Assembly: GCA_028280635.1 (NCBI GenBank)
Contig: JANQLM010000045.1
Location: forward strand, 1-64,000
Reading direction: 5' to 3'
Origin: Halieaceae bacterium
Lineage (GTDB): Bacteria > Pseudomonadota > Gammaproteobacteria > Pseudomonadales > Halieaceae
Length of the DNA stretch: 64,000 bases
Shown: positions 42,028-51,108 of the stretch, in pieces
Position numbering within the stretch: the stretch's first letter is position 1
How the letters are laid out: each line of letters opens with the position of its first letter
Notes under the pieces: model-generated
The model's database searches: none
The model's input: the letters and a program-made list of their open reading frames with translations, nothing else
Told to the model about the DNA's origin: nothing
Program-made: the position numbers and the translations under genes

Positions 42028-42900
42028 ATGCTTCAAGTTACACTGCCTGACGGCTCTTCACGCCAAGTCTAGCAACCCATCACTGTTCAGGATCTTGCCG
42101 CGGATATCGGTGAGGATTACAAGGTCGAGATCATCGAAGACATTATTGCCGAGGGTGAAAAAGTCTCGGTCTACCGACCAGGCGACTGGTTTGAAGCTTT
42201 CCGTGGTCCGTACCTGCCCAGTACCGGGAAGCCCCCCAAGGCCTTCAAGTTGATGAAACTTGCCGGAGCCTATTGGCGGGGCAACTCAGACAATGAAATG
42301 TTGCAGCGTATCTACAGCATCACCTGGAGGAGGCGGAAAAGCGCGATCACCGCAAGCTGGGTCGCAAGCTTCAGTTTTTCAACTTCAGTGATGAGGCACC
42401 GAGGGCAGTCTTCTGGCACCGGAAGGGTTGGACCCTGTTCCTGCAGTTCCTGGCCTACATGCGCAAGCACCAGGGAGACGCCGGCTACGTAGAGGTCAAC
42501 ACCCCGGATACCGTGGACCGCAGCGTGGGGGGACACCTCCAAGCACTGGTTCAACTACGGCGAGAACACGTTCTCTACAGAGGCGGAAGACGGCAGTGTG
42601 TACGCGCTGGAGGTTGTGGGCCTGGATTGTGTCTTGTACCCCGGGGAGGGTGCTTTCTACGGTCCCAAGCTGGAACTTGTGCTGCGCGGCGCGATTGGCC
42701 GCGACTGGCAGTGCGACATGCTGCAGGCGGTGCCCTACCTGTTGGTGTTAGGCGACAGGGAGATTGCAAACAACGAGATTGCCGTGCACACCCAGAGCGG
42801 TGACGACCTGGGCACCATGTCTATCGATGACTTAATTGCCCGCCTCCAACAGGGAATCGAAACGCGCCCTGGCGAAGCGGTGACCTCCAGGGTGGCGTGA
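42028..42900 (+). pseudogene. thrS: Degenerate threonyl-tRNA synthetase
   Basis: Read in successive frames, this stretch spells the order of a threonyl-tRNA synthetase: MLQVTLPDGSSRQV with a stop at codon 15, [11 protein letters not shown], then [34 protein letters not shown] and [17 protein letters not shown], a frame change to [30 protein letters not shown] and [12 protein letters not shown], another change to [32 protein letters not shown] and DWQC, then [11 protein letters not shown] and [15 protein letters not shown]. Long segments are missing, among them the editing domain, most of catalytic motif 2, and the stretch between WQC and PYLLV that holds motif 3 and a zinc His. It cannot make an active enzyme. 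A functional paralog must exist elsewhere. Confidence 0.9.
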
Positions 42901-42930: not shown

Positions 42931-43365
42931 TCAGTTCATCGGGGGGATCCAGGTCAGTGACGAGTGGTGAAGAGAGATCAGCACCTTCCCATTGAGCTTG
43001 TGATAAGCAAAGGTGTAGTCGGCGCGTGTCGCGTCACCCTGCTCATTGACGAAGGTGTAGTGGCCCATGTCCTTGTAGCCCATACCACCCGCTTTCAGGA
43101 TGGGACCAACAGCGCTCTGGAAGTCCACGCGCTTCCATCCATTGGATAAAAAGCCGCCGTCGTGCGGGTAGTCCGGGTTGCCACCAATGAAATAGGAGCG
43201 CGCACCCGCTTCGTCCAGCCGAATTTCATCAGCCAACGTCGGTTTGAACAACAGCGGCTCGTCCGGCGATCCGAAGTCATACAAGCCAAGCAGCGTTTCA
43301 ACGTCTTGATCCACGACGGCCTTGGCCCACGCACGTTGCGCGTTGACCACTTCGGCCTTCGTCAT
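42931..43365 (-). CDS. SnoaL-fold protein resembling iota carbonic anhydrase (COG4337-like)
   Basis: A 144-residue protein from ATG 43365; the frame runs open to 43482, but the extension overlaps the hisI end. It has AWAKAVVDQDVETLLGLYD, FKPTLADEIRLDEAGARSYF, a GGNP..DGGFLSNGWKRVDF segment, GHYTF, DYTFAYHKLNGKVLISLHHSS and a Pro-rich end. I recall this pattern, above all the closing LHHSS, from the COG4337/iota carbonic anhydrases, some of which work without metal. It lies 113 nt downstream of hisI on the same strand. Its place in the zinc-economy island makes a metal-free carbonic anhydrase attractive. The assignment is from memory of the family and remains moderate. Confidence 0.6.
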   Translation of the reverse strand: MTKAEVVNAQRAWAKAVVDQDVETLLGLYDFGSPDEPLLFKPTLADEIRLDEAGARSYFIGGNPDYPHDGGFLSNGWKRVDFQSAVGPILKAGGMGYKDMGHYTFVNEQGDATRADYTFAYHKLNGKVLISLHHSSLTWIPPMN

Positions 43366-43478
43366 CTGTTCGAACTTTCTGGTAGAAACCACGATAAAGC
43401 CTCCGTATCGAGCCGATAGCCTGGAGTACGCCTGGCTGCTTAAGTGTTTCGAGAGATGGCGGAGCTCAGGCCCACCAT

Positions 43479-43982
43479 TCAAAGCTGGGTCGGATTGGGT
43501 GCGTCACCGTAGACATCCTTCGGATCAAAAGCTTTCTGCGATTCCTTGAATACAAGTCGGGCGGTCTCGCCAGACGTATCGCTAAGGTCAACAGACCGGT
43601 AAAAGCAGGACCGATATCCCACGTGACAACTGGCGCCTGAACCGGCAACCCTGACACGCAGCCAGACAGCGTCCTGGTCGTCGTCTACGCGTAGTTCTAC
43701 CACCTCCTGGGTGAGACCACTGGTCGCGCCCTTGCGCCAGAGACACTGCCGGCTGCGGCTCCAGTAGTGGGCCTGGCCGGTGACAATCGTCTCCGCAAGC
43801 GCATCGTCATTCATATAGCCCAGCATCAGGACTTCACCCGTCTCTGCGGCGGTCGTGATGCAGGGAATCAGTCCATCAATATCGAACCTGGGGGCCAGCG
43901 CATGACCTTCTTCGACTTGCTCGATCGACTCGCGCGCAGCAAAGAGAGTTGAAGTCGTCTGGTCGCTAGTCTTGGCTTTCAT
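43479..43982 (-). CDS. hisI: Phosphoribosyl-AMP cyclohydrolase paralog (HisI2-like)
   Basis: A 167-residue HisI enzyme, with [36 protein letters not shown] and [13 protein letters not shown]. The zinc enzyme normally has three Cys: one in VDCDxDAL and two in CH...SCFYR. Here the last two (119, 126) are kept, but the first reads [12 protein letters not shown] with Asp101 in place of Cys. That loss marks the Zur-linked HisI2 paralogs in other proteobacteria. It opens the ring of phosphoribosyl-AMP in histidine synthesis. The start has GGAG eight nt upstream. It is divergent from the cysS operon across the 44087-44116 palindrome. Confidence 0.9.
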
Positions 43983-44086: not shown

Positions 44087-44116
44087 AAAAACGTAACGTT
44101 ATAACATTACGTTTTT
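44087..44116. promoter_or_regulatory. Zur-box-like 30-nt palindrome, site 1
   Basis: Outer arms AAAAACGTAA and TTACGTTTTT pair perfectly, around a central CGTTATAACA with a single mismatched pair, so GTTATAAC sits at the axis. This matches the general RTGTTATAAYAC-like form of proteobacterial Zur sites. It lies between hisI (minus) and the Smr-like/cysS genes (plus), where it could control both. Base pairs seen directly; Zur binding inferred. Confidence 0.65.
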
Positions 44117-44329: not shown

Positions 44330-44671
44330 ATGCCCCTGTATGACCCGGACAGCATTCGCGCGCTCGTTGGGGAACGTGCAGACGGTGACCACACGATCGA
44401 TTTACGAGGAGCCGCCTTAAGCGACGCCCAGTCGACGATCTCCCAATTGCTGGAACGGGGGCGCTGGGGTGATGCGACTAGCGTCGTAATCCGCATCGAC
44501 CCGGCCACCGCCACCAGTGGAGAGACTCTCTTCCTGCCACTCGGCCGTCAGCTTCTAGAGGCGCGCAAGCGCGGTCTCCTCACTCGCTGCCACCCCCTGC
44601 CCGAAGCGGACGGTGGCGGATTCTACGTCGAGCTGCCGGGCCACCCCAGTAGCAGGGAGACGCCGCGATGA
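44330..44671 (+). CDS. Small Smr-like protein
   Basis: A 113-residue protein with [35 protein letters not shown] and the ending [10 protein letters not shown], which together resemble an Smr-type nucleic-acid-binding/endonuclease fold (LDLHG...GxG). The family call is weak, as the usual GxG core is altered. AGAGG lies seven nt before the ATG. It overlaps the cysS start by 4 nt (ATGA), so the two are translationally coupled. Functional link to cysteinyl-tRNA synthesis unknown. A gap of 213 nt upstream (44117-44329) holds no convincing gene. Confidence 0.6.
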
Positions 44672-46050
44672 CGCTGTGCCTGACCAACACCCTGACGCGA
44701 AAAAAGGAGCCGTTTACACCGGCCAACCCCGATCACGTGACGATGTATGTCTGCGGGCCGACGGTGTACAACTTTGCCCATATCGGCAACGCCAGACCCG
44801 CCGTGGTCTTCGACGTTCTATATCGTCTCCTGAAGCGACGCTTCGACCGCGTCATCTACGCCCGCAATTTCACGGACGTGGATGACAAGATCAATGCCGC
44901 CGCGAAAGACGCGGGCCAGCCGATTTCGGTGGTGACTGAACGCTACATAGAGGCCTACCATGCCGACATGGCCGCGCTCGGCGTTCTGGCGCCGGACCTG
45001 GAGCCGCGGGTAACAGAACATATTGCCGAAATCATCGGCATGATTGAGGAACTGATCACACGGCGCCATGCCTATGCAGCCGAGGGCCATGTCTTGTTTC
45101 ACGTTCCTTCCTTCTCAGCGTATGGCGCTTTATCTGGCCGCAACCGTGACGAGATGATCGCTGGAGCCCGGGTAGAGGTGGCCCCATTCAAGCGGGACCC
45201 GGCGGACTTTGTGCTCTGGAAGCCTTCAACGCCGGACTTACCTGGCTGGGAGAGCCCCTGGGGCCGTGGTCGGCCGGGATGGCATATCGAATGTTCGGCC
45301 ATGATCGAGCGGCATCTGGGGACGTCCATCGACATCCACGGCGGTGGCCAGGATTTGGTGTTTCCGCATCACGAAAACGAGATCGCCCAGGGCACCTGTG
45401 CTCATGACGGCGAGCTGTATTGCCAACATTGGGTGCATAACGGCTTCGTCACGGTCGAGGGGAAAAAAATGTCGAAGTCCCTCGGCAACGTGCTGCTGGT
45501 TCGCGACCTGCTCAACGAGGCGCCGGGCGAGGCCATTCGCTTCGCGCTACTGGGCGCGCATTATCGCCAGCCCCTGGACTGGAGCACGGAGACGCTTGCT
45601 CAGACGAAACGCGGCCTCGATCGCCTCTACGGCGTGCTCCGCGATCTCGGTGATGTTCCTGACACCACTTACCCCGCCGCTCTGCTCGCTGAGTTTGAGG
45701 GGGCCCTTGAGGACGACCTAAATCTCCCACGCGCTATCGCTGAGCTGTTTCAGCTGGCGAAGGCTGCCCGTCGTGCAACAAGCGTTGCGGATCGCTCCGC
45801 TCACAAGGCAGCCTTGCTAGATGCGGGCGGTTTGCTGGGCCTGCTGCAACAGGACCCGACAGCCTGGTTCGGACAATCCGCAGTAGACGACGGCGACACG
45901 GCGGAGATTCAGTGCCTAGTTGAGGCGCGGCTGGCCGCTCGAGCAGCAGGAGACTATGCCACCGCCGACCGGATTCGCGACGAACTGGCCACCCTCGGTG
46001 TCGCAGTTCAGGATCGAACCGACGGCCCGGCTTGGCAGAAAATCGGCTAG
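44668..46050 (+). CDS. cysS: Cysteinyl-tRNA synthetase (paralog)
   Basis: A 460-residue class I aminoacyl-tRNA synthetase that charges tRNA-Cys. [19 protein letters not shown] holds the HIGH-like motif, GWHIECSAM and [10 protein letters not shown] the remaining metal-region residues, and KKMSKSLGN the KMSKS loop. The Cys and His residues that bind zinc in E. coli CysRS (C28, C209, H234) are all present, unlike in the altered HisI and PyrC paralogs nearby. It ends overlapping the convergent hupE-like gene by 4 nt. A Zur-like palindrome lies upstream. A second, housekeeping cysS is expected elsewhere in the genome. Confidence 0.95.
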
Positions 46051-46637
46051 GCCTGCCAGGGCCTGGTCTCATACATCAGGATCATGGATATCCCGGCGGC
46101 AGCGCCGGAGACAAAGACATTCCAGTCCCGGTGGCTGACCCTGATCAGATTCAGGAATACGAAGGCGACAGCCACGACGACGGATACCACCAGCAACTGA
46201 CCAAGCTCAATACCCAAGTTGAAGCCCAGTAGCGGTATCAGGATAGAGGACTCGTCCATCAGCAACGCTCTGAAGTAGTTCGAGAAGCCCATTCCATGAA
46301 TGAAACCGAAGATCAACGCCATCAGATAGTTCCAACCCGGCTTTAACGACCTTCCGGCGCGCCCATCCCCAAACAAGTTGTGTATGGCCGTAAACAGAAT
46401 CGTAGTTGGAATTAGGAATTCGATGTAGCTTGAAGGGATCGTCAGCGTGCCGACCGAGGTCAAGGCCAGAGTAACGCTGTGACCGATCGTAAATGCCGTC
46501 ACCAAAATGACAATGCTTCGCCATTGTTCGATCCTGTAAACCGCGCAAAGTGCGATCAGAAACAGGATGTGATCGAACCCCGCCAGATTAGAGATATGCT
46601 CAAAGCCCAGCTGCAAATAGAGGGGGAACGAGTGCAT
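46047..46637 (-). CDS. HupE/UreJ-like membrane protein
   Basis: A 196-residue membrane protein with about six helices. The repeated polar motifs [40 protein letters not shown] and [11 protein letters not shown] are those of the HupE/UreJ family, members of which move nickel or other metal ions. It is one nt from the DUF6702-type gene and 532 nt from the dipeptidase start on the same strand. No hydrogenase or urease gene is near, so a zinc, cobalt or other metal uptake job fits better; that is inference. The region looks less GC-rich than its surroundings. Confidence 0.85.
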
Positions 46638-46638
46638 A

Positions 46639-47166
46639 TCAAAACCTTAAGCGGTGTGTGGAAGTGTTTTTGTTCAGCATCAGGCTCTTTGAACTGTCGT
46701 TGACGTGGACGTAAACAATATTGCTCTGGTCAAAGAAAAGATCAGTGAATACCGCGTTCATTATTTCCAGTGATTTCAATGGTGCCGGGTGCTGATACTC
46801 AAACAGCACGCCGAGAGTTGTATCATCCCCCTCACCTTTCAGTTGCTTGCTTTTGATCTGCAGGGCCAGCTGCGCACCATTGGCCTTAACGTAAAAATAC
46901 TGATTCAGGTATTCCAGCAGAAGCCGCTCGGCGTGCGGTGATTCATTCGATTGACAGAATGCCAGCTCAGTACTGTACGGATCGAAGACCAGGGCTTCGT
47001 TCACATCCGTCAGGAATAATCTGAGATTGATTGTCAAAACCTGCTGATCATCTGAGTACTCTATCTCGCTCAATGACAGCCGCAATGGATGAGCTGGTGC
47101 ACTATACGATTGCACCAGAAACACAAGACTGAGCAACGAACCTGTGCAGACGCACCTCAGGGTCAT
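46639..47166 (-). CDS. Secreted DUF6702-type protein
   Basis: A 175-residue exported protein with signal peptide (TGSLLSLVFLVQSYSAPAHP) and a body of the DUF6702 type: HPLRLSLSEIEYSDDQQVLTINL, YFYVKANGAQLALQI, LEIMNAVFTDLFFDQSNIVYVHVN. DUF6702 genes are often paired with HupE-like genes, as here, one nt upstream of it. It may be the periplasmic partner of the metal transporter. It lies three nt from the dipeptidase gene. Confidence 0.75.
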   Translation of the reverse strand: MTLRCVCTGSLLSLVFLVQSYSAPAHPLRLSLSEIEYSDDQQVLTINLRLFLTDVNEALVFDPYSTELAFCQSNESPHAERLLLEYLNQYFYVKANGAQLALQIKSKQLKGEGDDTTLGVLFEYQHPAPLKSLEIMNAVFTDLFFDQSNIVYVHVNDSSKSLMLNKNTSTHRLRF

Positions 47167-47169
47167 CGC

Positions 47170-48450
47170 TCAGGACACATCCTGTGACTGCATCTCTTCG
47201 GCGACCGCCTGGACTTCGGTGAATACGCGCATCAGGTTGCCGCCCCAGATTTTTTCAATCTCTTCTTCGGTATAGCCCCGTCTGACTAGTTCAATCGTGA
47301 TGTTCATGACTTCACTGGCGTCGAACACGCCTTCGATGCCGCCACCGCCATCAAAATCACAACCGATTCCTACGTGATCAATACCGGCTATCGCTACCAT
47401 GTGATCGATATGGTCGACGGCGTGTTGGACTGTAGCTGGTGGAGTCGGAAACCTCTCATTAATTTCACTCATCGCCTGCCGCATCACCTTGCGGTCCTCC
47501 CGGGTCATTTCATCCGCCGGCTTCCTTTTTGCTCGAAGTTCGGCAATCGCTGCATCTCGTTCGGGATTTTCCGGCATGTCACGCAGGTAGCTAGCAAGCA
47601 TCGTCAATTGCACAACGCCACCGTTTTTAGCCATGGCTTTCAGCATTTCATCAGACATGTTGCGATTGTGGTCGGTGACGGCACGCGCATTCGAATGGCT
47701 GGCTATGATCGGCGCCTTTGATTCGGTGATGGCATCGAAAAAGACGTCATCGCTACCGTGAGAAACATCGACGATCATGCCCAGGCGGTTCATTTCCCTG
47801 ATGACCTCTTTACCAAATGCACTGATACCGCCATGCTCCGGGCCCTCCGGATCTGTCGCGGAATCCGCCAGGTCATTGTTGCTGGAATGCACCAGAGTGA
47901 TGTAGCGCACACCCCTGTCAAAGTACAGCTCGACATTGGCGATGTCTGCGCCAATCGGATACCCATTCTCAATACCGATGTAAATGGCACGCTTGCCGGC
48001 CTTCTCCAGTTCGTAGGCGTCCTCCGGGTTGAGCGCCAGGCCCACAATGTCGGCGTTCTGCTGCGTAGAAGCCACGACCGTATCTATCATCTGTAGGCCC
48101 AGTGCTTTCGCGCGGGTGTTCCCATCATCATCTCGAATGTCCTGGGCAACGAACGCGGCAAAAAAGATGGCATCCAAGCCCCCTTCCTTCATTCTCGGGT
48201 AATCCACCTTCGAGCCGGTCTCGTTGGGGTCATGTCTTTCGGACATATCAAATCCCGGCTCGATCATGCGCAGCGGCGTATCTGCGTGGGAATCGAAGGT
48301 AAGCACGCGATCATGAATTTCCAGAGCCCGCGCAATGAGTTCCTCCTCTGCTTCAGGTGTAGCGGCATTGGTATCAGGATCTCTCACGCAGCCGCCCGTC
48401 AAGAGCAACAGAGCAAAGATAACGAGGTAGTTTTTCCGGGTATAAAACAT
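47170..48450 (-). CDS. Lipoprotein membrane dipeptidase (M19 type)
   Basis: A 426-residue M19 (renal-dipeptidase-like) metallopeptidase with a lipoprotein signal (LLLLTGGC). Metal ligands appear in DSHADTP (His, Asp), IGIENGYPIG (Glu), VDVSHGSD (His) and ASHSNARAV (His), followed by GIGCDFDGG for the catalytic Asp. It would hydrolyse dipeptides, including D-amino-acid or Cys-containing ones, at the periplasmic face. It is the first gene of the minus run dipeptidase-DUF6702-HupE and is divergent from pyrC across the 48691 palindrome, 240 nt away. A role in recovering metal-binding amino acids is a guess. Confidence 0.9.
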   Translation of the reverse strand: MFYTRKNYLVIFALLLLTGGCVRDPDTNAATPEAEEELIARALEIHDRVLTFDSHADTPLRMIEPGFDMSERHDPNETGSKVDYPRMKEGGLDAIFFAAFVAQDIRDDDGNTRAKALGLQMIDTVVASTQQNADIVGLALNPEDAYELEKAGKRAIYIGIENGYPIGADIANVELYFDRGVRYITLVHSSNNDLADSATDPEGPEHGGISAFGKEVIREMNRLGMIVDVSHGSDDVFFDAITESKAPIIASHSNARAVTDHNRNMSDEMLKAMAKNGGVVQLTMLASYLRDMPENPERDAAIAELRAKRKPADEMTREDRKVMRQAMSEINERFPTPPATVQHAVDHIDHMVAIAGIDHVGIGCDFDGGGGIEGVFDASEVMNITIELVRRGYTEEEIEKIWGGNLMRVFTEVQAVAEEMQSQDVS

Positions 48451-48690: not shown

Positions 48691-48715
48691 CAAAATGATA
48701 TATTGTATCATTTTG
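48691..48715. promoter_or_regulatory. Zur-box-like 25-nt palindrome, site 2
   Basis: Arms CAAAATGATA and TATCATTTTG are perfect inverted repeats over ten bases with a TATTG centre. Aligned with the classical AATGTTATANTATAACATT Zur consensus, 15 of 18 positions agree. It lies in the 408-nt gap between the dipeptidase and pyrC starts (48451-48858). Nothing else in that gap is supported as a gene. Confidence 0.7.
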
Positions 48716-48858
48716 CCTTATACACCCCGCACTACTCCTGCCCAATACCGTGGTACCAGGCGCCCCTTACCTTCACATGCAAGCCAGCAGGGCCCAGGCC
48801 TCGTCTACTTGTTCAACGAGTGGAGCGCAGCCAGTGCAGCACACTAATGGAACGTAGA

Positions 48859-50193
48859 ATGCCCTCCACACTTATCAAGCATGCCCTGCTCGTCAACGAA
48901 AGCGAAGCCGTAGAAGCAGACCTGCGAATCGAAGATCAACGCATACAGGCGATTGCCCCGGAGCTCAGTGCCAGACCCGGCGACCAGGTACTAGAAGCCA
49001 ACGGCAGTTACCTGCTCCCTGGCATGATCGATGACCAAGTGCATTTCCGGGAACCTGGCCTGACACACAAGGGCAGCATCGCGAGTGAATCCCGCGCTGC
49101 GGTGGCGGGCGGCATTACCAGCTACATGGAAATGCCGAATGTGAACCCTGCCACCACCGATATCGCTGTACTGGAAAGCAAGTTTGAGTTGGCCGCGAAG
49201 AGCTCGATGGCAAACTACTCGTTTTACCTGGGAGCCACAGAACACAACCTTGAGCAGATCAAGACTCTCGACCCTGCCAGGCACTGCGGGGTCAAGGTAT
49301 TCATGGGGGCATCGACCGGCGACCTGCTGGTGGAAGACCCGGCAGCGCTGGAGGCGATCTTTCGCGATGCGCCTACGCTGATTACAACCCACTGCGAGAG
49401 CGGGCGCGTGATGGCATGGAACAAAGCCCAGATAGAGCGCTCGCAGGGCACCCTGTCCATAGAAGATCACCCGAGAATCCGTGATGTCGAGGCATGCTAT
49501 GCATCATCCGAGTACGCGGTCGGCCTCGCAAAGCGCCACGGCAGCCAGCTCCATGTTCTGCATATCACAACTGCCAAGGAACTGGAGCTCTTTGAAGCTG
49601 GGCCTGTCGAAGGCAAATCCATCACGGCTGAGGCCTGCGTACACCATTTGTGGTTTACCCAGGATGACTATCCTCGCCTTGGTAACTTCATCAAATGCAA
49701 CCCCGCGATCAAGCACCAGAGTGACCGGGACGCGCTGATCCAGGCGCTGGGTACCGGCCAGATCGATATCATCGCCACCGACCACGCACCCCACACCCTC
49801 GAAGAAAAGCAGGAAACCTATGAAAACGCGCCGGCCGGCCTACCCCTTGTGCAGCACGCTCTCCCAAGCCTGCTGGACCACGTCCACCACGGCCGCATCA
49901 GCCTGACGCAAGTGGTCGAGAAGACGGCCCACAATCCGGCCAGGCGCTACAGCATTGCCGAACGAGGCTTCCTGAGAGAGGGCTACTATGCCGACCTGGT
50001 CATGATTGCACCCGATTCTCCTTCAACCGTGGCCGAAGACAGTATTCTCTACAAGTGCGGCTGGTCCCCGTTTACCGGGCACACCTTCCAGTCGTCAGTC
50101 AAGGGGACCTGGGTCAATGGCACCCGGGTGTTCGATGGCGAAACCGTTGCTGAGATTGACTCACCTGCCATGCGATTGTTTTTTAACCGATAA
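48859..50193 (+). CDS. pyrC: Dihydroorotase paralog (PyrC2-like)
   Basis: A 444-residue amidohydrolase from ATG 48859; ATG 48847 is an alternative. It resembles dihydroorotase, the third step of pyrimidine synthesis, with the carbamylated-Lys region VKVFMGASTG (Lys146), THCES, HVLHIT and ATDHAPH (Asp). The first metal motif, normally DxHVHxREPG, here reads DDQVHFREPG, so Gln60 takes the place of the first His. Such paralogs are known in Zur regulons and in some Bacteroidetes as the main enzyme. The Zur-like palindrome lies about 145 nt upstream, and folE2 follows after 12 nt. Confidence 0.92.
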   Translation: MPSTLIKHALLVNESEAVEADLRIEDQRIQAIAPELSARPGDQVLEANGSYLLPGMIDDQVHFREPGLTHKGSIASESRAAVAGGITSYMEMPNVNPATTDIAVLESKFELAAKSSMANYSFYLGATEHNLEQIKTLDPARHCGVKVFMGASTGDLLVEDPAALEAIFRDAPTLITTHCESGRVMAWNKAQIERSQGTLSIEDHPRIRDVEACYASSEYAVGLAKRHGSQLHVLHITTAKELELFEAGPVEGKSITAEACVHHLWFTQDDYPRLGNFIKCNPAIKHQSDRDALIQALGTGQIDIIATDHAPHTLEEKQETYENAPAGLPLVQHALPSLLDHVHHGRISLTQVVEKTAHNPARRYSIAERGFLREGYYADLVMIAPDSPSTVAEDSILYKCGWSPFTGHTFQSSVKGTWVNGTRVFDGETVAEIDSPAMRLFFNR

Positions 50194-50205: not shown

Positions 50206-51108
50206 ATGTACCGATTCGATATGCTGCCCGACGTTGCCAGCGATACCCTCCAGGACCGTTCACTGCCACTGCAATGGGTGGGCATGGAAAAGATTGACGT
50301 GCCAGTCAACATCGCCCTGGCCGCAGGCAATGTCCCGCAGTTGGTGGCAAAAGCCAATATCTATGTCAGTCTTGATGATGCCTCTGCGAGAGGCATTCAC
50401 ATGTCGCGCTTGCACACCATCCTCAACCAACTGGGGGACGAGGTCTGCGAAAAATCGACGCTCGATCGCTTGTTAGGCGAGTGCGTCGACTCTCAGGCGG
50501 GCATTAGCGAAAGTGCAAAAATTGAGCTCGAGTTCGATCTTCTGCTTGAGAAGCCGGCGCTACTCAGCGATGAACGCGGCTACCAGGCCTATCCCATGGT
50601 CATCAGAGGCGAACTGACCGGGGATTTGCGTTGCTACGAGATTGAACTCACCATTCCTTACTCAAGTACCTGCCCCTGCTCTGCATCGCTGGCGAGGCAG
50701 TTGTACGCCAACGCCGTCAACGAGAGGTTTCCCTCCGACCAGATAGACAAGGCATCGCTACTGCAATGGATGCAATCCGAACAGGGCAGTGTTGCGACAC
50801 CGCACGCGCAAAGATCCTATGCCTACATCAGGCTTTGTATGACCGACAACCCGTGGACTGATTTCCCCGCCCTGATCCGCAAGCTCGAGGCGGTGATCGG
50901 CACACCGGTGCAGACAGCTGTCAAACGGATTGACGAGCAGGAATTTGCAAAGCTCAACGCAGAAAACCTGATGTTCTGCGAAGACGCTGCCAGGCGCATC
51001 AAGCTCCATCTGGATAACATGCCCTTCATCACCGACTATTGGCTGAAGGTTGAACACCAGGAGAGCCTGCACGCGCACAATGCCGTCGTCATCGACCGAA
51101 AAAGGTAG
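50206..51108 (+). CDS. folE2: GTP cyclohydrolase FolE2 (type IB)
   Basis: A 300-residue type IB GTP cyclohydrolase that makes the folate/queuosine precursor dihydroneopterin triphosphate and can use metals other than zinc. GIHMSRLH, the catalytic CysPro segment SSTCPCSASLAR and HAQRSYAYI are typical, and the end has ESLHAHNAVV. Known FolE2 genes are switched on by Zur when zinc is scarce. It follows pyrC by 12 nt and shares its presumed Zur-like promoter. No housekeeping folE is in the window. Confidence 0.95.
   Translation: MYRFDMLPDVASDTLQDRSLPLQWVGMEKIDVPVNIALAAGNVPQLVAKANIYVSLDDASARGIHMSRLHTILNQLGDEVCEKSTLDRLLGECVDSQAGISESAKIELEFDLLLEKPALLSDERGYQAYPMVIRGELTGDLRCYEIELTIPYSSTCPCSASLARQLYANAVNERFPSDQIDKASLLQWMQSEQGSVATPHAQRSYAYIRLCMTDNPWTDFPALIRKLEAVIGTPVQTAVKRIDEQEFAKLNAENLMFCEDAARRIKLHLDNMPFITDYWLKVEHQESLHAHNAVVIDRKR

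Follow-up and report, generated by a model that had tools for sequence, protein, structure and literature searches.

A compact iota-class carbonic anhydrase encoded in a putative Zur-controlled zinc island of a Halieaceae bacterium

Carbonic anhydrase ranks among the major users of zinc. The window, a 64,000-nucleotide stretch of the genome of a Halieaceae bacterium, contains a short gene downstream of hisI that was originally predicted to encode a metal-free carbonic anhydrase serving as a zinc-sparing substitute. Two questions follow from this proposal: whether the gene belongs to a response to zinc limitation, and whether its product is a carbonic anhydrase of the kind that works without metal. 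The reading that we favour, with a probability of about 75%, is that the product, here called iCA, is a Zur-derepressed, metal-independent, zinc-sparing carbonic anhydrase that is co-transcribed with hisI. We infer its activity, independence of metal and control by Zur from its family, fold and active-site residues, from operator-like sites, and from a zinc context that recurs among its relatives. The features of the locus are:

42028–42858, plus strand: decayed thrS paralog with large deletions and a stop codon, convergent with iCA
42865–42879, minus strand: terminator-like hairpin just downstream of iCA, of a kind no more frequent in the scan than expected by chance
42931–43392, minus strand: iCA, iota-class (COG4337-type) carbonic anhydrase, short cytosolic form, assigned by family match, active site and predicted fold
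43479–43982, minus strand: hisI paralog (phosphoribosyl-AMP cyclohydrolase), lying upstream of iCA in the putative hisI-iCA operon
44092–44111, no strand: candidate Zur-type operator (motif match), between hisI-iCA (minus) and the small ORF-cysS pair (plus)
44330–44671, plus strand: small ORF of unassigned family, overlapping the start of cysS and kept beside cysS in locus L020
44668–46050, plus strand: cysS, cysteinyl-tRNA synthetase paralog of zinc islands
48691–48715, no strand: second candidate Zur-type operator (motif match), upstream of pyrC-folE2
48847–50193, plus strand: pyrC-type dihydroorotase of zinc islands
50206–51108, plus strand: folE2, zinc-independent GTP cyclohydrolase IB

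The open reading frame of iCA is located on the minus strand and ends with a stop codon at 42931. A chance reading frame is ruled out by its conservation in 80 orthologs, with sequence identities of 74–92%. The original prediction placed the start of the protein at the ATG at 43365, which encodes an internal, highly conserved methionine. The GTG at 43392 is the more likely start, since it is preceded by a GGAGG Shine-Dalgarno sequence 7 nucleotides upstream, and since a translated leader of 5–8 residues precedes the same methionine in the orthologs. Counted from this codon, iCA is probably 153 residues long and lacks a signal peptide. The start appears to be non-canonical in 25 of the 80 orthologs (ATT in 18, ATC in four, and GTT in three; L041, L043, L046, L048, L049, L054, L055, L058, L061, L064, L069, L071, L074, L077, L078, L081, L084, L085, L087, L090–L092, and L094–L096), at a position that is ATG or GTG in relatives. 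Each of these genes has a Shine-Dalgarno-like stretch and the conserved leader [ST]-[ED]-R-x-[FY]-[EQ]-P. Non-canonical start codons are known in infC and pcnB.

The gene for iCA follows hisI on the same strand, as originally predicted, and clusters with cysS, pyrC, folE2, and the decayed thrS. The gap of 86 bp that separates iCA from the stop codon of hisI at 43479 was scanned and contains no promoter- or terminator-like site. The two genes form a putative operon. The source genome encodes a second hisI elsewhere and three beta-class carbonic anhydrases, which fits the requirement of a paralog-replacement logic. Genes for a HupE/UreJ protein, a DUF6702 protein, and a membrane dipeptidase lie within the island (46047–48450), and occur together with an ortholog of iCA in L024 as well. 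A long copy of thrS is retained in the related loci L020, L038, L057, and L058, and the copy in the window is a decaying pseudogene.

The core of the candidate operator upstream of hisI, at positions 44093–44110, is the near-perfect palindrome GTAACGTTATAACATTAC, the exact form of which is found once in the genome. The generic pattern TGTTATANNATAACA was rejected as a Zur search because it yielded little over chance; the palindrome and, after it, the published Escherichia coli Zur motif gave much higher specificity. The E. coli motif TRWNAYRWTATAWYRTNWCA, taken from a review (PMC6103462) and used with up to two mismatches allowed, matches nine sites in the 4.48 Mb genome, whereas the reversed-pattern control matches none. 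The window contains five matches, compared to the 0.06 expected by chance, and the site at 44092–44111 differs from the motif at two positions. Eight of the nine sites precede zrgA-zur, dksA, a znuC-like gene, a COG0523 gene, two TonB receptor genes, pyrC-folE2, and the hisI-iCA/cysS region; the ninth, in C70, has no evident zinc gene adjoining it. The gene for the candidate Zur, a Fur-family protein, is located at C46:106119 beside COG0523 and zrgA; a motif site precedes zrgA, and a COG0523 gene lies further along the locus. The znuC-like ATPase gene behind its Zur-type site is followed by genes for a binding protein and a COG0523 protein. A similar operator-like site is located near hisI in L020 and L021. 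The DksA homolog encoded behind a Zur-type site (L212 1735–2223, source genome C46) has one cysteine left of the C4 zinc finger and resembles the zinc-independent DksA2.

The zinc context of iCA was compared among the 80 orthologs, taken from one genome per species, using fixed score thresholds for the markers COG0523, zur, znuA, znuB, DUF1826, hisI, thrS, cysS, pyrC, and folE2. At least one zinc-homeostasis gene flanks 20 of the 80 orthologs, compared to one of 80 control regions (p = 3e-6), where the controls are 20 kb regions taken at even spacing from four genomes of the family of the source organism, and not relatives of every ortholog host. At least two markers are present in 16 of the 80 ortholog flanks and in none of the 80 control regions. 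A chance association of iCA with zinc genes is therefore rejected. In Tateyamaria (L050, L056), znuA/zur/znuC/znuB adjoin the gene, and in Rhodospirillales (L058, L061) a Zur box precedes folE-hisI-iCA operons. In L051, the gene is divergent from a COG0523 gene and has a Zur box 66 bp upstream. COG0523 metallochaperone genes are frequent neighbours. Two observations support the zinc-economy island of the original prediction: Zur-type operators are distributed over the genome, and zinc-gene neighbourhoods recur in other phyla.

The link to zinc is recurrent rather than universal, since no zinc gene was seen in the flanks, some of them short, of 60 of the 80 close orthologs, and almost none has a Zur box immediately upstream. 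A box directly before the gene, searched for in all orthologs, is convincing only in L051 and weak in L035 and L057, and universal Zur control of the clade is rejected because such boxes are almost absent. From the gene neighbourhoods, the clade appears to be one that often joins zinc islands. The 60 orthologs with unrelated neighbours and no Zur box fit an alternative in which iCA is a general-purpose cytosolic iota-class enzyme that is spread by transfer and supplies bicarbonate under any condition, its location in a zinc island being incidental. The high identity across distant taxa, combined with the absence of the gene from the three other genomes of the source genus examined, also resembles the pattern of a mobile gene. 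However, the excess of zinc context over the control regions argues against an incidental location. The zinc-island label is scattered over the tree of orthologs, with at least seven changes on well-supported branches, and the same context is found in a second clade of iota-class enzymes. We consider this alternative unlikely, and favour a zinc-sparing role for iCA. Orthologs 87–92% identical to iCA occur in metagenome-assembled genomes labelled Planctomycetota, Longimicrobiales, and Myxococcota (L022, L023, L025, L027, L028, L030, L031). Several non-proteobacterial orthologs are of uncertain taxonomy because they lie on metagenome-assembled contigs that share their sample sets, and the near-identity may reflect recent transfer or misbinning.

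The second clade is about 35% identical to iCA and occurs in zinc islands on plasmids of Rhodobacterales. The gene order is hisI/COG0523-thrS-iCA-DUF1826 in Phaeobacter, thrS fragment-iCA-hisI in Thioclava, and COG0523-COG0523-iCA-DUF1826, beside znuBC-zur and znuA, in Sagittula. Paracoccus seriniphilus has a further plasmid island of this clade. No zinc neighbours were found for the long iota-class enzymes with signal peptides encoded on other plasmids, which mostly have two-component systems nearby. Because of this difference, the zinc-gene association, as read from gene neighbourhoods, appears to track the short cytosolic form. A second protein similar to iota-class carbonic anhydrases, encoded in the source genome (L002 1432–2010, identical to L117 5989–6567, source genome C53), is exported and has VQES in place of HHSS; its gene is located 3–5 kb from two COG0523 genes.

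The resemblance of iCA to COG4337-type iota-class carbonic anhydrases, on which the original prediction was based, is confirmed by profile, sequence, and structure comparisons. The sole significant NCBIfam match of iCA is NF047901, 'metal-independent carbonic anhydrase' (E = 7e-20), and this is the only family match in all 40 orthologs scanned. The score of 71 bits is far below the curated cut-off of 350 bits; because the model describes the long form, with 205 positions, we read the low score as the mark of a divergent subfamily rather than as exclusion from the class. The best phmmer matches of iCA in the PDB are the metal-free iota-class structures 7c5x (E = 9e-31) and 7c5v (E = 5e-17), and a profile of 40 members improves the E-values of the two iota-class structures to 6e-38 and 3e-20. 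The AlphaFold2 model, calculated from the 40-member alignment (pLDDT 82.5, pTM 0.81), has a cone-shaped alpha+beta (NTF2-like) fold, and iota-class carbonic anhydrases occupy the first four places among its PDB matches, with TM-scores of 0.75–0.77. Sequence and predicted structure together identify iCA as a divergent, compact iota-class carbonic anhydrase of the COG4337 type.

The active-site arrangement of the class is present in iCA. Residues Thr43, Tyr58, Phe72, His133, and Ser135, mapped by hand in the alignment, correspond to Thr106, Tyr124, Phe138, His197, and Ser199 of all2909 from Anabaena PCC 7120. The chain numbering of 7c5v is offset by 27 relative to all2909, and the offset was taken as confirmed because all five positions then fall on the right kinds of residue. 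Thr43, Tyr58, Phe72, and Ser135 are invariant in 40 orthologs, and His133 varies once. Alanine at Thr106, Tyr124, His197, or Ser199 abolishes the activity of all2909, and the activity of COG4337 enzymes survives chelation, with no metal bound (Hirakawa et al., PMC8132391). The active-site set and the zinc context support the original reading of iCA as a putative zinc-sparing, metal-free enzyme.

Some other iota-class enzymes have been reported to depend on Mn or Zn (including one described as Mn-using, PMC9010474), and iCA could accordingly be a Zur-regulated enzyme that uses Mn, Fe, or Co and spares zinc by metal exchange, as has been proposed for the Fe-type gamma-class enzyme of other Zur regulons. 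Two additional histidines conserved in the subfamily, His102 and His122 (40 orthologs), and the frequent proximity of COG0523 metallochaperones are in line with such a metal site. However, iCA is far closer to the metal-free COG4337 enzymes than to 3h51 and retains their active site, which makes metal exchange more doubtful still than an incidental location. Least probable of all is an NTF2-like protein with another function, such as small-molecule binding or isomerisation, since, despite the divergence of iCA from characterised iota-class enzymes and the many functions of its fold (the CaMKII hub, ketosteroid isomerase, and epoxide hydrolase are also among the structure matches), iota-class enzymes rank first by both sequence and fold, and the complete, mutationally tested active-site set is conserved.

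For the favoured reading, that of a metal-free, zinc-sparing enzyme, the following sequence of events can be envisaged. The gene would be co-transcribed with the hisI paralog from a promoter repressed by Zur. When zinc is low, Zur would leave the operator, enabling the expression of hisI-iCA, cysS, and pyrC-folE2. iCA would then take over the hydration of CO2 from the three beta-class enzymes, so that their zinc could be freed. In the active site, Thr43 and Tyr58, aided by Ser135 and His133, would activate a water molecule for attack on CO2 positioned near Phe72.

iCA shares its fold, the Thr/Tyr/His/Ser/Phe site, and the HHSS motif with all2909 and with Bn86287 from Bigelowiella natans (PDB: 7c5v, 7c5x; PMC8132391), at about 31–34% identity in structural alignment. 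Unlike these two proteins as described, iCA is encoded in a zinc island, and it lacks a stretch of 10–15 residues near the N-terminus. Long bacterial enzymes with signal peptides (L104, L106, L108–L110, and L002) belong to the same family, but are longer and exported, whereas iCA lacks the signal peptide. A functional parallel is the gamma-class enzyme Cam. Haas et al. 2009 (PMC2770081) proposed metal replacement for a set of Zur-linked paralogs that includes hisI, pyrC, Cam, hemB, cysS, and thrS. Like iCA, Cam is a carbonic anhydrase paralog found in Zur islands with hisI, cysS, thrS, pyrC, folE2, and COG0523, and it was proposed to replace the zinc enzyme; however, it belongs to an unrelated class and is thought to use iron, whereas COG4337-type enzymes are metal-independent. 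In the diatom Phaeodactylum tricornutum at low Zn/Co, an iota-class enzyme increases together with the COG0523-type protein ZCRP-A, which the authors interpreted as zinc sparing (PMC9010474). That enzyme differs from iCA in being eukaryotic, described as Mn-using, and without a Zur operator. In Burkholderia cenocepacia, a carbonic anhydrase gene is among the genes of a zinc-induced cluster (PMC10563805). Our literature search, in which few subscription papers were covered, found no paper on an iota-class enzyme in a bacterial Zur regulon. To this extent the strategy is little described, as had been supposed, but zinc sparing by a gamma-class enzyme and by a diatom iota-class enzyme has been published. 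It is a known strategy, here carried by a metal-free class of enzyme.

On balance, we lean towards the broader view that metal-free iota-class carbonic anhydrases from at least two clades and several phyla have been repeatedly recruited into Zur regulons as zinc-free replacements of beta-class enzymes, forming a general module. A zinc-controlled switch to a metal-free carbonic anhydrase would be zinc sparing in its most complete form. It would assign a physiological function to the widespread bacterial iota-class enzymes and account for the retention of both kinds of carbonic anhydrase in bacteria. Cultured members of the Rhodobacterales, among them Phaeobacter and Sagittula, have islands of the same make-up. 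If the module exists, it would have been overlooked because its proteins are unnamed or mislabelled. Public plasmid records name several iota-class enzymes 'phosphoribosyl-AMP cyclohydrolase' (L107 5902–6375, L111 5902–6381, L112 5902–6375, L104 5911–6471, and others), a label that seems to have been transferred in error from hisI.
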